Source: an uncultured Syntrophobacterales bacterium (GTDB lineage: Bacteria > Desulfobacterota > Syntrophia > Syntrophales > UBA5619). Taken from it: 38,668 nucleotides of DNA. This document shows positions 32,428 through 37,160 of the stretch, piece after piece. Made by a program: the position numbers and the translations under genes. The DNA lies in NCBI GenBank assembly GCA_903928915.1, contig CAIYSL010000082.1, positions 1 through 38,668 on the forward strand, read 5' to 3'. Below the pieces are notes generated by a model, which was not told the origin of the DNA, did not search any database, and worked only from the letters and a program-made list of their open reading frames with translations. Every line of letters starts with the position of its first letter. The stretch's first letter is position 1.

Positions 32428-34047
32428 ATGGCGGATGAGCAGCATTCCGAAAACGCGCGGGTCGTCCGGGCCGCGGGCGTCGTGGGCATCGCCACGATGC
32501 TCTCCCGCGTGTTCGGATTCCTGCGGGACATGGTGGTGGCCGGCCTCTTCGGCGCCGGGCTCACCACCGACGCCTTCTTCGTCGCCTTCCGGATCCCCAA
32601 CCTCCTCCGGAGGCTCCTGGCCGAGGGCTCGCTGACCGTGTCGTTCGTCCCCGTGTTCACCGAGTACCTGCGGAACAAGACCCGCCAAGAGGCGCTGGAG
32701 CTGGCGAACGTCACCTTCACGGCACTTTCGATCCTGCTGGTGGCCGTCTCGCTGCTCGGCGTCCTCTTCTCGCCGCTCATCGTGACGGTCATGGCGCCCG
32801 GGTTCAGCCGGATGCCCGCCCAGTACGACCTGGCGGTCTTCCTCACGCGGCTGATGTTCCCCTACATCCTGCTGATCTCGCTCGTGGCGCTCTGCATGGG
32901 GATCCTCAATTCGCTTCGGCATTTTGCGGCGCCGGCCCTCTCGCCCGTTGTCCTGAACATCGCGATGATCCTTGCGGCCCTGACACTCGGGGGCTTTTTC
33001 CGGGAGCCGGTTGTGGCACTGGCCGTGGGTGTCATGGCCGGCGGCATACTCCAGGTCGCCATGCAGTGGCCGTTTCTGGTCAGGATGGGGGTGCGGTTGA
33101 AGCCGGATTTCCACTTTCGCCACCCGGGGCTCAAGCGGATTGGGATGCTGATGCTCCCCGCATCGTTCGGGGCGGCGATCTACCAGATCAACATCTTCAT
33201 CGGAACGATCCTGGCGTCTCTCCTGCCGGCGGGAAGCGTATCCTACCTCTACTACGCCGATAGGATCGTCGAGCTTCCCCTCGGGGTCTTCGCCATCGCC
33301 GTGGGGACTGCCACCCTCCCGAGTTTTTCGGAACAAGCGGCGGAAGGACGGATCGACGAGCTGAAACGGACGATCGCCTTCTCGCTCAGGCTGATACTGT
33401 TCATCACCATCCCGGCGACGATCGCGTTGATCGCCCTGCGCGCCCCGATCATCTCCGTGCTGTTCCAGCGGGGCGAGTTCAGCCTCCGGTCGACCGAGCT
33501 CACGGCGCAGGCCCTGCTGTTCTACGCCGTCGGCCTCTGGGCCTTCTCGGTCATCCGGATCATCGTTGCGGCCTTCTATTCTCTCCAGGATACCCGCTCC
33601 CCGATGCGGGCCGCCATCTGTGCCCTGGTGGTGAACGCCCTGGGCAGCATTGCGCTGATGTTTCCGCTGCAGCACGGGGGGATCGCGCTGGCCACCTCGC
33701 TCGCCTCGGCTGTGAATGTGGGAATGCTGTGGGTGATCCTGACGCGGCGGATCGGACCGATCCTGGACGGCGCCTTCTTCCGCGCCGCCGCCAAGACCGC
33801 CCTCGCCTCGCTCCTGATGTGGGGGGTGATCCTCCTGATCGGCCTTCTCACCCCCTGGGACCCCGCAGGCCCCTTCGCTGCCCGGCTCGTCTACCTCGCC
33901 CTGTGCGTCACCGCGGGCGGCGTCGCCTTTTTCGCCGCCGCCGCCCTGCTCAAGAGCCCCGATATCACGGTCGTGCTGGGGACCCTGCGGAGGCGGATCG
34001 GAGGGCGGGAGCTGGGCGGGGAGCGTTCGCATACTTCCGCTGGATAA
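32428..34047 (+). CDS. murJ: Lipid II flippase MurJ (MviN)
   Basis: 539 residues with about 14 membrane helices. The N-terminus shows the MurJ signature VGIATMLSRVFGFLRDMVVAG, then FFVAFRIPNLLRRLLAEGSL and FVPVFTEY, all with the conserved arginines that line the lipid II cavity. Later segments (GSVSYLYYADRIVELPLGVF, FYSLQDTRSPM) are equally typical. It flips lipid II across the inner membrane for peptidoglycan synthesis. The ATG at 32428 is preferred over an in-frame TTG at 32410. The 3' end overlaps the convergent SPOR gene by 83 bp, so the two stop-ends share DNA. Confidence 0.96.
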   Translation: MADEQHSENARVVRAAGVVGIATMLSRVFGFLRDMVVAGLFGAGLTTDAFFVAFRIPNLLRRLLAEGSLTVSFVPVFTEYLRNKTRQEALELANVTFTALSILLVAVSLLGVLFSPLIVTVMAPGFSRMPAQYDLAVFLTRLMFPYILLISLVALCMGILNSLRHFAAPALSPVVLNIAMILAALTLGGFFREPVVALAVGVMAGGILQVAMQWPFLVRMGVRLKPDFHFRHPGLKRIGMLMLPASFGAAIYQINIFIGTILASLLPAGSVSYLYYADRIVELPLGVFAIAVGTATLPSFSEQAAEGRIDELKRTIAFSLRLILFITIPATIALIALRAPIISVLFQRGEFSLRSTELTAQALLFYAVGLWAFSVIRIIVAAFYSLQDTRSPMRAAICALVVNALGSIALMFPLQHGGIALATSLASAVNVGMLWVILTRRIGPILDGAFFRAAAKTALASLLMWGVILLIGLLTPWDPAGPFAARLVYLALCVTAGGVAFFAAAALLKSPDITVVLGTLRRRIGGRELGGERSHTSAG

Positions 34048-34684
34048 ACCCGTAGGGGTGCTCACGTGCCACGCTGTTGGCCGCTCGATACTCGGCGGCC
34101 TCTTCGACCGTGGAGAAATCGCCGAGCAGGATCCGGTGCCACACCCCGCGTTCTGCAGTCGAGACGGTTTCCAGCGAGACATCGGACGCCCGGCCCCGCA
34201 GCTCCTCCATGAACAGGAGGGCCTTCTGCTTCTGCTGTTCGGGATAGGCCCGAACCTGGATGGCGTATCGGGCTGGCCGGTCGGCGGGGGAAAAAGCGGC
34301 GGCAGGCGGTTCCCCGGGCGGCGGCACCGGATGCCCCACCGTCTCTTCCGCCGCCAGGATGATGATCCCCCCGCCTCCCTCCCCGGTCGACGGAACCGTG
34401 GGCGCTGCGGCGCCCCACCAGCCCTGCCACCAGGAAAGACCGATCACGCCGAAAATGAGGAGGGCGAGGCCCCAAGAGGGGCGGACGGGAAAGCGACGCC
34501 CCCGTTGCCGATCCGATCCGGCCCCGGTTGCCTCCCGACCGCCCGCATGCGGAGGCGCTGTCCCACTGACGGTCGGGACCATCCGCTCAGGGCAATCATC
34601 CGATTGATCCAGGCCGGCAACCTTGCGATAGAGCCCCTCCAGTTCCCGTTCCAGTTCGCACTCCCGCAGATCTCCCCTCTCCAT
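33965..34684 (-). CDS. Single-pass membrane protein with C-terminal SPOR domain
   Basis: 239 residues. A cytoplasmic N-terminus of about 65 residues (coiled ELERELEGLYRKVAG, then a basic stretch) is followed by one membrane helix at about 69-88 (SWGLALLIFGVIGLSWWQGW), a Pro/Gly-rich linker and a SPOR domain from about 138 (RYAIQVRAYPEQQKQKALLF, WHRILLGDFSTVEEAAEYR). SPOR domains bind denuded glycan at division septa. The C-terminus is Ala/Pro-rich. It is the third gene of the minus-strand set, 39 bp after the J/HTH gene, and overlaps the end of murJ by 83 bp. It probably links a cytoplasmic partner to septal peptidoglycan. Confidence 0.88.
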   Translation of the reverse strand: MERGDLRECELERELEGLYRKVAGLDQSDDCPERMVPTVSGTAPPHAGGREATGAGSDRQRGRRFPVRPSWGLALLIFGVIGLSWWQGWWGAAAPTVPSTGEGGGGIIILAAEETVGHPVPPPGEPPAAAFSPADRPARYAIQVRAYPEQQKQKALLFMEELRGRASDVSLETVSTAERGVWHRILLGDFSTVEEAAEYRAANSVAREHPYGFIQRKYANAPRPAPALRSASAGSPARP

Positions 34685-34723
34685 GGCAGCCTGCCTCTCT
34701 TCGCGACGATGCGGCGACAGCGA

Positions 34724-35371
34724 TCAGAGAAACCCGAGTTTCCGGAGATAGCCGTCCATGACCGGGCCCGCATCCAGCTCCAGGCAGCGGCTGTAGGCCC
34801 GCAGAAACCCTTTCAGGTAGACCAGCGGCGGAAAGCACTCCACCTGCTCCGCCTCGATGGCCTGGAGCGTATCGATCCGGATGTTGGTCCGTTCGGCAAT
34901 CTCTTCCAGCGGTACCTCAAGGACCGTTCTGATCTCCCGCAGATCTGACCCCGCCAGCGTATCCTGCGAAAGGAGACGGCGAATCGCGGGGGTTTGCGCG
35001 ATCCGCTGTTTCAATTCAGCGGACCGCTTGGCAAGAGACGAACCGTTCCTGCCGGCAGCCTGAAACTCGTAGATCGCGATCGGCTCTTTTGTCCTGTCCC
35101 GGAACGTCCCCGCGGCGTCGAGGAGGCCGGCGAGGATCAGGGATTGATCGTACGCCTTCCTGGCCTCGGGATTGATCAGCGTCAGATAGGCCTGCTCGAT
35201 GCAGGAAAGGATCTCCGTCCTCTCCTCCTCCGAGAAGAAGGAGTAACTGGCGAGGGAGTCGTCCTGGTAGAGCGAAAAATTGGCCTTGTAGGCCCGCCGG
35301 ATGTCCAGCGGTCCGGCGTCGGGCGGAATTTCCAGGACCTCGTAGTAATTCTGCTCGTTGAACGGTTTCAT
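34724..35371 (-). CDS. J-like domain (no HPD) fused to RodZ-type HTH_25
   Basis: 215 residues from ATG 35371, or 222 from GTG 35392, which directly abuts the upstream stop. Residues 4-75 read as a J domain (NYYEVLEIPPDAGPLDIRRA, ending INPEARKAYD), but the HPD tripeptide needed to stimulate DnaK is replaced by QDD (YQDDS). From about 140, LREIRTVLEVPLEEIAERTN through FPPLVYLKGFLRAYSRCLEL is the RodZ-like HTH_25 domain, which in RodZ binds MreB rather than only DNA. There is no membrane helix, unlike RodZ. Placed between a MinD-like ATPase and a SPOR protein, it looks like a cytoplasmic adaptor. The function is inferred only from domains and order. Confidence 0.85.
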   Translation of the reverse strand: MKPFNEQNYYEVLEIPPDAGPLDIRRAYKANFSLYQDDSLASYSFFSEEERTEILSCIEQAYLTLINPEARKAYDQSLILAGLLDAAGTFRDRTKEPIAIYEFQAAGRNGSSLAKRSAELKQRIAQTPAIRRLLSQDTLAGSDLREIRTVLEVPLEEIAERTNIRIDTLQAIEAEQVECFPPLVYLKGFLRAYSRCLELDAGPVMDGYLRKLGFL

Positions 35372-35392
35372 GGCCGATGCTCTTGCCCGCAC

Positions 35393-36406
35393 TCAGTCTG
35401 CGCCCCCGTGCAGGCGCCGCTCGGCCTCCTTATTTGCCGGCAGCAGGCTGCGGCAACATTCCCGCAGGTCGAGGGCGGTCTGCGTGTAGGGATACAGTTC
35501 GATGAAGGGTGTCCGCTTGCAGATCGCGCTATGCACGCGGTCGTCAAACCCGACATTACCGATATGCTCCATCCGCAGGGCGAGATGTTTCGAGATGATC
35601 TTGCAGATCAGGGCGCCGATGCTGTGGTTGTCCTGCTTCCGCAGCTGATTCAGGACCAGCCTGAAATGGAGGCTTCCCAGTTCCTGCTGGAGGAGGCTGC
35701 CCTTTTCCGGGTCGAGTTCCCCCATCACCCGCAGGAGGAGATCGGGGTTGCTGACGATGGCCTTCGGATTTCGCCGCTCCGCCTCATCGGCCAGTGCCTT
35801 GAAATCGTACGTCTTGAGGACGTGGTGGATCTTGCGGAAATAGACGGAGCGGATCAGGCGGTAGATATTCTCTATCGATGTCGGTTCGGGGGTGGTAATG
35901 AATACCCCCGTCTGCGAAATCAGGAAAAAATCGATCGTGTTGAAGGCGGTCCCGGCCCCGAGGTCCAGGAGGATATAGTCATAGGAAAGTCTGGCCACCC
36001 CCCGCAGCACCTTCATCTTCTGTTCGTGGCCGAGGTTGGCCATGTCGAGGTTGTTCATCGCCCCGCTGATCAGAAAGAGGTTGGGGAGGGCGGTGGGGAC
36101 TACTGTTTCCTCGAGCGTGCCGACCCGCCGGTTGATGAAGTCCGCGATGCTCATCGGGGGGTTGGGAATGCCGACGATCGTGTGGAGGTTTGCCGCACCG
36201 AGGTCGACATCGATCAGGAGCGTCCGGTATCCCTGTCTGGCCAACAGAAATCCGAGGCTGCCGGTAAAAAAACTCTTACCGGTTCCCCCCTTCCCGCCGC
36301 CGATGGGCCATATCTGGGATACGGGACTCGCCATGCCGTTTGCCGGTTCAGCCACCCCCTGCCCGCTGCGTCCCCTGCCGAAAACGATGGATACCTGCCG
36401 CACCAT
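35393..36406 (-). CDS. MinD/FlhG-like P-loop ATPase
   Basis: 337 residues. The deviant Walker A KGGTGKS is at 39-45, with the second active-site lysine at Lys39. TLLIDVDLGAANLHT (63-77) is the A' motif and YDYILLDLGAGT at about 143-154 is the switch/Walker B. The body resembles FlhG/FleN and MinD (DLGAANLHTIVGI is the FlhG-style form). A FlhG-type activator domain is not obvious and the C-terminal amphipathic membrane helix of MinD is not clear, so positioning is probably partner-driven. It begins ten residues earlier than most MinD homologs; the ribosome site (CAGGG) sits very close to ATG 36406, so a later start (GTG at about 36355 or ATG 36334) is possible. A strong promoter lies just upstream. 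Confidence 0.9.
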   Translation of the reverse strand: MVRQVSIVFGRGRSGQGVAEPANGMASPVSQIWPIGGGKGGTGKSFFTGSLGFLLARQGYRTLLIDVDLGAANLHTIVGIPNPPMSIADFINRRVGTLEETVVPTALPNLFLISGAMNNLDMANLGHEQKMKVLRGVARLSYDYILLDLGAGTAFNTIDFFLISQTGVFITTPEPTSIENIYRLIRSVYFRKIHHVLKTYDFKALADEAERRNPKAIVSNPDLLLRVMGELDPEKGSLLQQELGSLHFRLVLNQLRKQDNHSIGALICKIISKHLALRMEHIGNVGFDDRVHSAICKRTPFIELYPYTQTALDLRECCRSLLPANKEAERRLHGGAD

Positions 36407-36424
36407 CCCTGCTGAAGCGGCTGA

Positions 36425-36453
36425 AGTATAGGGAGATGAGTCTACTTTGTCAA
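36425..36453 (-). promoter_or_regulatory. Near-consensus sigma-70 promoter of the MinD-like gene set
   Basis: On the minus strand TTGACA (36453-36448), exactly 17 bp, then TATACT (36430-36425). This is the closest match to the sigma-70 consensus in the window. The start would be near 36418, leaving only about 12 nt before ATG 36406. Confidence 0.8.
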
Positions 36454-36644: not shown

Positions 36645-37160
36645 GCCATTGCCAGCGGAACGTTCCAGACGAACCTCCTGGCACTGAACGCGGCAGTCGA
36701 AGCGGCCCGGGCCGGGGAAGCGGGGGCGGGGTTTGCGGTCGTGGCCGATGAGGTCCGCAACCTGGCAATGCGGGCCGCCGAGGCGGCCGGGAATACCTCC
36801 GGACTGATGGGCGATATCGTGACCAAGGTGAAGGCCGGGGAAAGGTTGGTGGAGGCGACCAACAGCGCCTTCAAGCAGGTGGGGACGAGCTCCGAAAAAG
36901 TCGTCGTGCTGATGGGGGAAATTGCCGCCGCTTCGCAGGAGCAGTACCAGGGTATCGAGCAGGTCAACCGAGCAGTCGTGGAAATGAACGGTGCAACGCA
37001 GCAGAACGCGGCCAGCGCCGAGGAACTCGCCGCAGCCGTGGCGACGTTCAAGACAAGCCATCAGGGCTTCAACGATTCGCCAGGCCGCAAGAGGCCGCGC
37101 AGAGGCGGTGCGACTCCCGTCGCGCTTCCGGCGCCGACGTTATCCGCCCATGCTCTTTAG
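36645..37160 (+). pseudogene. Remnant of a methyl-accepting chemotaxis protein, signalling tip onward
   Basis: The frame reads [20 protein letters not shown] (from 36663), then [20 protein letters not shown]: the highly conserved CheA/CheW-binding hairpin tip of chemoreceptors. The descending coiled coil ([18 protein letters not shown]) and a basic tail follow, ending at a TAG at 37160. Everything before the tip (sensor, membrane helices, HAMP, ascending helix) is absent. Upstream the same frame is open to a TGA at 36513 but is not receptor-like and has no ATG. The only early start, GTG 36741, would begin inside the tip. I therefore call it a 5'-truncated gene. The Cache-domain gene just downstream may be a relative or replacement. 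Confidence 0.75.

Follow-up and report, generated by a model that had tools for sequence, protein, structure and literature searches.

What joins three adjacent genes on the minus strand of a contig from an uncultured Syntrophobacterales bacterium (Syntrophales, UBA5619)? The contig (CAIYSL010000082.1, assembly GCA_903928915.1) was analysed over 38,668 nt, and this whole stretch is referred to as the window. The open reading frames at 35393-36406, 34724-35392 and 33965-34684 were confirmed. They encode a P-loop ATPase of the ParA/MinD type, a protein in which a J-like domain is joined to a RodZ-type helix-turn-helix (HTH) domain (hereafter, the adaptor) and a SPOR-domain protein. The original prediction took these three genes as one set behind one promoter. 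We found that the ATPase and adaptor genes form a conserved two-gene unit, which is wider than the three-gene set first described. It is moderately probable that the two proteins form a positioning or recruitment switch of the ParA/MinD kind, with an adaptor built on a J fold.

The ATPase and adaptor genes form a conserved pair

We searched 148 genomes of the phylum Desulfobacterota for fusions of the J-like and HTH domains (J-HTH), and these fusions were present in many families. Besides the window, 16 of the fusion loci were fetched, and the ATPase gene was immediately upstream in all 16. An eighteenth pair of this sample (L056) was located from the ATPase side. Beyond the phylum, an alignment of the ATPase was searched against genome contigs. 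A search of the genome contigs with the J-HTH protein alone gave no match, and the J-HTH alignment is too variable for patterns. The ATPase search gave at least 80 loci from Deltaproteobacteria/Syntrophaceae, Nitrospirae, Bacteriovoracaceae and other Bdellovibrionota, SAR324, Myxococcota (including Corallococcus) and Acidobacteria.

Among the matches listed, the J-HTH gene directly follows the ATPase gene in 76 of 80 loci. At L084, only the first adaptor codons are present at the contig end, and at L124 the contig ends right after the ATPase gene. In the close relatives L138 and L143, the adaptor is truly absent beside the ATPase; these genomes hold J proteins elsewhere but no clear J-HTH protein. 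Counting L084 and leaving out L124, the pair is adjacent in 77 of the 79 assessable loci among the matches listed, from at least six phyla. The gap between the two genes is mostly -10 to +40 bases. Thus, the conservation of order and co-occurrence that was to be examined for all three genes holds for the ATPase and the adaptor, and for the SPOR gene within the order of the window only. Because the arrangement is conserved over dozens of genomes, it is not a product of chance. In the open-access literature, which was the scope of our search (subscription papers and preprints lay outside it), we found no description of the ATPase/J-HTH pair.

The ATPase is separate from ordinary MinD and FlhG proteins

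The ATPase gene probably starts at 36334 and not at 36406, where the reading frame opens, because the relatives begin near the second in-frame ATG. The protein encoded at 35393-36334 (minus strand, as for all three genes) would then have 313 amino acids. It matches the CbiA, AAA_31 and ParA families of Pfam and possesses a deviant Walker A motif, GGGKGGTGKS (36272-36301), which contains the KGGTGKS sequence noted in the original prediction. The closest structures were FleN (5j1j, Z score 30.2), FlhG (4rz3, Z 29.3) and MinD (Z 27). Thus, the ATPase shares with FlhG/FleN and MinD the fold (Z 27-30), the deviant Walker A motif with its signature lysine and the A' and B motifs. These Walker residues are invariant in 73 relatives, with the single exception of a Q at the signature lysine.

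In contrast to FlhG/FleN and MinD, the window-type ATPase has a helical insert after the PEPTSIEN helix and lacks a membrane-targeting helix. The insert (35672-35809; helices at residues 179-188, 197-207 and 209-220 of the model) precedes the LNQ strand and is common to a wider family. The C-terminal tails of the relatives are 2-21 residues long without a conserved pattern, and some proteins stop two residues after the last helix. Because the tail is so short and varied, we conclude that the membrane-targeting amphipathic helix of the MinD type is absent.

Full-length matches to the ATPase model (E < 1e-49, about 50 genomes of the phylum) separate from ordinary MinD and FlhG proteins, which align over about the first 170 positions only. 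In a tree of 134 ATPase sequences, the J-linked ATPases cluster in a group of 114 tips (support 0.76). An adjoining J protein is encoded for 112 of these tips, and the two J-less tips are the only exceptions inside the group. This group nests within a broader group that has the same helical insert. In the sister group, the ATPase genes of L058, L060, L062, L064 and L065 are directly behind a gene for a PilZ-like protein (a cyclic di-GMP receptor) and not before a J-HTH gene; the PilZ identity was confirmed by Pfam for L062.

The adaptor joins a J-like domain without HPD to a RodZ-type HTH domain

Alignment with the relatives suggests that the adaptor probably starts at the ATG at 35371 rather than at the GTG at 35392, so that the gene spans 34724-35371. 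Both Pfam domains scored above their cut-offs: DnaJ with 32.8 bits (cut-off 27.8) and HTH_25 with 64.4 bits (cut-off 24.6). Foldseek with the ATPase/adaptor model listed ATPases only. Therefore, the J, HTH and SPOR domains were assessed on a second model, for which the E-values were weak (best 0.006; these are small domains in a long model) and the assignments are based on probability and Z score.

The J-like domain (35126-35359) matched J-domain structures with Z scores of up to 10.5 (4wb7) and 9.9 (2och). The HPD motif is required for the stimulation of Hsp70 by J domains. In the window, this site (35258-35266) reads QDD within LYQDD, and the motif was found in none of the 77 J-HTH adaptors checked. 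Thus, the adaptor resembles the J domain of DnaJ in its fold and its Pfam score, but HPD has been lost throughout.

The best structural match of the HTH domain (34727-34963) was 2wus_S, the RodZ protein of the MreB-RodZ complex, with a Z score of 10.2 over 80 of 82 residues. In RodZ, two aromatic residues are needed for MreB binding (F60 and Y64 in Escherichia coli, Y66 and F70 in Chlamydia; PMC4047632). The equivalent positions are aromatic in 73 and 77 of the 77 adaptors, respectively, and the four others have H at the first position. Unlike RodZ, the adaptor carries its HTH domain at the C-terminus behind a J domain and has no membrane anchor: no membrane helix or hydrophobic stretch was found in the J-HTH protein, and it has no RodZ-like periplasmic domain. 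Both folds hold in the structure models, and the early description of the adaptor as a J-like domain without HPD and a RodZ-type HTH domain without a membrane anchor stands. The linker between the two halves is generally short. At two Corallococcus loci (L142 and L152), however, the halves are about 440 residues apart, and the L142 protein has 592 amino acids.

The adaptor keeps its J half beside the ATPase and varies in its other half

In one genome of the phylum sample (G119), the ATPase gene is followed by a gene that combines the J domain with an AAA_31/BY-kinase-type P-loop domain, beside Wzz and NusG-like genes. Such J/BY-kinase-like proteins recur in the class of G119, where 27 of 63 genomes gave a match at E 1e-30, most of them through both halves. 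We read eight of these loci (L202-L209). In seven, the ATPase gene immediately precedes the J/BY-kinase gene; the remaining locus stops at this point because the contig ends. A NusG-like gene was seen near the J/BY-kinase locus in several of them.

Another genome, G007, has a locus that is otherwise syntenic with those of two pair-bearing relatives. This locus has neither the ATPase nor the J half; what remains is the HTH half (L051:8469-8780; 72% identity). The BY-kinase form keeps the ATPase, and G007 lost the ATPase and the J half together. Thus, the J half is tied to the ATPase, and it is the output half of the adaptor that can be swapped.

The SPOR gene belongs to the set only within the order of the window

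The third gene (33965-34684) encodes a single-pass SPOR protein, as first described. Its SPOR domain (34076-34273) scored 23.9 in Pfam (cut-off 21) and matched the SPOR domain of RlpA (6i09) with a Z score of 9.3; one membrane helix is predicted (34424-34492). The protein thus shares its fold and its single membrane pass with RlpA, DedD, DamX and FtsN. It differs from them in a cytoplasmic N-terminal helix, ELExELExLYRKVA (34613-34660), and in its fixed place beside the pair. This helix is shared by 17 SPOR proteins, in which L15, Y19 and V22 are invariant.

Of the 24 loci in the order of the window, 17 have the SPOR gene next to the ATPase and adaptor genes. In 15 of them, including the window, it follows the pair directly and in the same orientation, and at L184 and L194 it adjoins the pair but is encoded on the other strand. 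Because adjacency was kept after the inversion, this arrangement argues for a functional link between the SPOR protein and the pair. Beside the pair at seven loci of the order (L183, L185, L191 and L193, and L036, L037 and L039 of family f2), the SPOR gene is absent. Outside the order, neither the SPOR protein nor its N-terminal helix gave a match at E values up to 10 in the open reading frames of the fetched loci. Therefore, the SPOR gene belongs to the set only within this order.

A joint model suggests docking of the J domain on the ATPase

The ATPase and adaptor genes are in the same frame with a single TGA between them. We folded the read-through sequence as one chain, using an alignment in which 112 single proteins were combined with 18 read-through pairs of the same kind. 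The joint model had a mean pLDDT (predicted local distance difference test) of 90 and a pTM (predicted template modelling score) of 0.76. From the pTM formula, about 0.57 is expected when the ATPase alone is rigid, 0.70 when the J domain is docked and 0.82 when both the J and HTH domains are docked. Moreover, several VIA alignments to the nitrogenase Fe protein extend from the ATPase into residues 360-384 of the model, which belong to the J domain; these alignments fit a J domain packed on the ATPase in the model. The adaptor and SPOR genes are also in frame, and their joint model had a pTM of 0.41, approximately the value expected without docking. This second joint model also serves as a control for the linker. 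Thus, of the complexes proposed for the adaptor, the one with the ATPase is suggested by the models, and the one with the SPOR protein showed no sign of docking.

Promoter and neighbouring genes in the window

A sigma-70-like promoter, TTGACA-17-TATACT, is present in front of the ATPase gene at 36425-36453 (minus strand, read from 36453 to 36425). It matches 11 of 12 consensus positions and ranks first among seven candidates in the window, in agreement with the original prediction, although shuffles of this half of the window gave a mean of 2.3 matches over the threshold. At the other end, the SPOR gene and murJ overlap tail-to-tail by 83 bp. The murJ gene had been noted as a convergent neighbour. 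However, it is beside the pair in the window and at none of the other loci. It is not a conserved neighbour, and this neighbourhood is incidental. Just upstream of the promoter, on the plus strand at 36741-37160, we observed a fragment that resembles the signalling region at the C-terminal end of a chemoreceptor and looks like a remnant.

Discussion

In the positioning scheme of ParA/MinD ATPases, an ATPase gene is accompanied by a dedicated partner that gives cargo specificity; many ATPases of this family are orphans with unknown partners (PMC10241942). The pair looks like an undescribed relative of known bacterial positioning systems. As in ParA-ParB, McdAB and PomXYZ, the ATPase gene has a dedicated adjacent partner gene. 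For known partners, contact with the ATPase is shown or suggested to be made by a disordered N-terminus with positive charge (PMC10241942). In the J-HTH partner, by contrast, the folded J-like domain lies nearly at the N-terminus. We therefore propose the following mechanism for the switch. Judging from its intact Walker residues, the ATPase may cycle between an ATP dimer and a monomer like FlhG and MinD. The J-fold half of the adaptor, useless for Hsp70, would have been repurposed as a docking module for the ATPase, as suggested by the joint model. The other half would be the output that chooses the cargo. For the RodZ-type HTH, which is the usual output, the likeliest target would be MreB or an MreB-associated protein, and in one class a BY-kinase-like domain would take the place of the HTH as output. 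In the order of the window, the SPOR protein may tether the unit to the membrane and connect it to denuded, septal peptidoglycan. MreB as a target and targeting to the septum are reasonable suppositions.

An alternative is that the pair works like FleN and FleQ, in which case the ATPase would restrain a transcription factor and the adaptor HTH would bind DNA. The nearest ATPase structures are indeed FleN, some of them in complex with the transcription factor FleQ, and repressor HTH folds such as DdrO (Z 7.7) and SinR also match the adaptor. However, the HTH matches RodZ best, and the RodZ domain does not bind DNA (PMC6946637). Furthermore, the region of the recognition helix has a slight negative charge (median net charge -1), and a kinase-like domain replaces the HTH in one class. 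We consider such a regulator rather unlikely.

The J/BY-kinase form raises a second alternative, namely that the unit serves the export or assembly of envelope polysaccharide and not MreB, the HTH form being a variant of BY-kinase-like control. The Wzz and NusG-like genes beside this form in G119 speak for this idea, as does one sister-group ATPase to which a second P-loop domain is attached. Most J-HTH loci, however, have no adjoining polysaccharide genes, and a role of this kind for the whole unit seems to us quite unlikely.

Because the ATPase falls in the FlhG/MinD group, the pair might instead assist flagella or the Min system of cell division. FlhA and MinC were sought in 19 genomes of the phylum sample: the 18 that carry the pair, and G119, in which the kinase form follows the ATPase. 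FlhA is absent from 13 of the 19, and in the loci read the pair is not beside flagellar genes. In the genome of the window, another gene, an FlhG-like paralogue, lies about 1.3 kb from flhA. MinC was found in none of the 19, whereas six control genomes gave a MinC match. Since only 10 of the 148 genomes of the phylum have MinC and its avoidance by pair genomes is not significant, its absence indicates independence from Min and not replacement of it. These results bear out the independence from flagellar and min genes that was to be examined, and, unlike FlhG/FleN and MinD, the window-type ATPase has its J-HTH partner and no link to such genes. An accessory role is very improbable.

It is equally improbable that the two genes are merely kept in a housekeeping operon without a joint function. 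Such an operon might be read from Bdellovibrionota (many of L092-L155), where the pair is followed by an rluD-like pseudouridine synthase gene (51 loci in all) and a gene for a PgeF-like laccase-domain protein (43 loci). But the genes after the pair vary by family (an fn3 protein, a metallo-beta-lactamase fold, an acetyltransferase, a pseudouridine synthase, archease, or convergent redoxin/polyprenyl synthetase genes). These neighbours change between phyla while the pair stays, and the J/BY-kinase protein holds the same place behind the ATPase. Finally, the J fold might suggest a true Hsp70 co-chaperone unit, which the absence of HPD from 77 of 77 adaptors makes extremely improbable.

Several points weigh against the positioning switch or its proposed targets. 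The whole case is computational (sequence, gene order and predicted structures). The short natural linker may bias the ATPase/adaptor joint model, and covariation of paired sequences gave no signal between the ATPase and the J domain and a weak signal between the ATPase and the HTH domain, which may be phylogenetic. The aromatic residues equivalent to the MreB contacts may be a general property of HTH_25. Moreover, although every pair genome has MreB, so do 143 of the 148 genomes overall; because it is nearly universal in the phylum, its co-occurrence is uninformative. The genome of the window has MreB together with a separate, membrane-anchored RodZ-like protein. In the loci read, no conserved cargo gene was found beside the pair across phyla.

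The positioning switch can be extended to a new class of ParA/MinD positioning systems in at least six phyla. The J fold would be its general docking module, and its outputs would lead to MreB through the HTH domain, to envelope polysaccharide through the BY-kinase-like domain and to the septal wall through the SPOR arm. We regard this extension as possible, although on balance doubtful. We know of no earlier case in which a J fold is reused as a docking module of a positioning ATPase, and if the proposal is true, this would be the first. It would possibly also give a direct path from a positioning ATPase to MreB and the septal wall. The pair thus supplies this ATPase family with a partner and offers an adaptor principle that can be tested. 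The family spans at least six phyla, and its carriers include cultured Corallococcus as well as relatives of Bacteriovorax.

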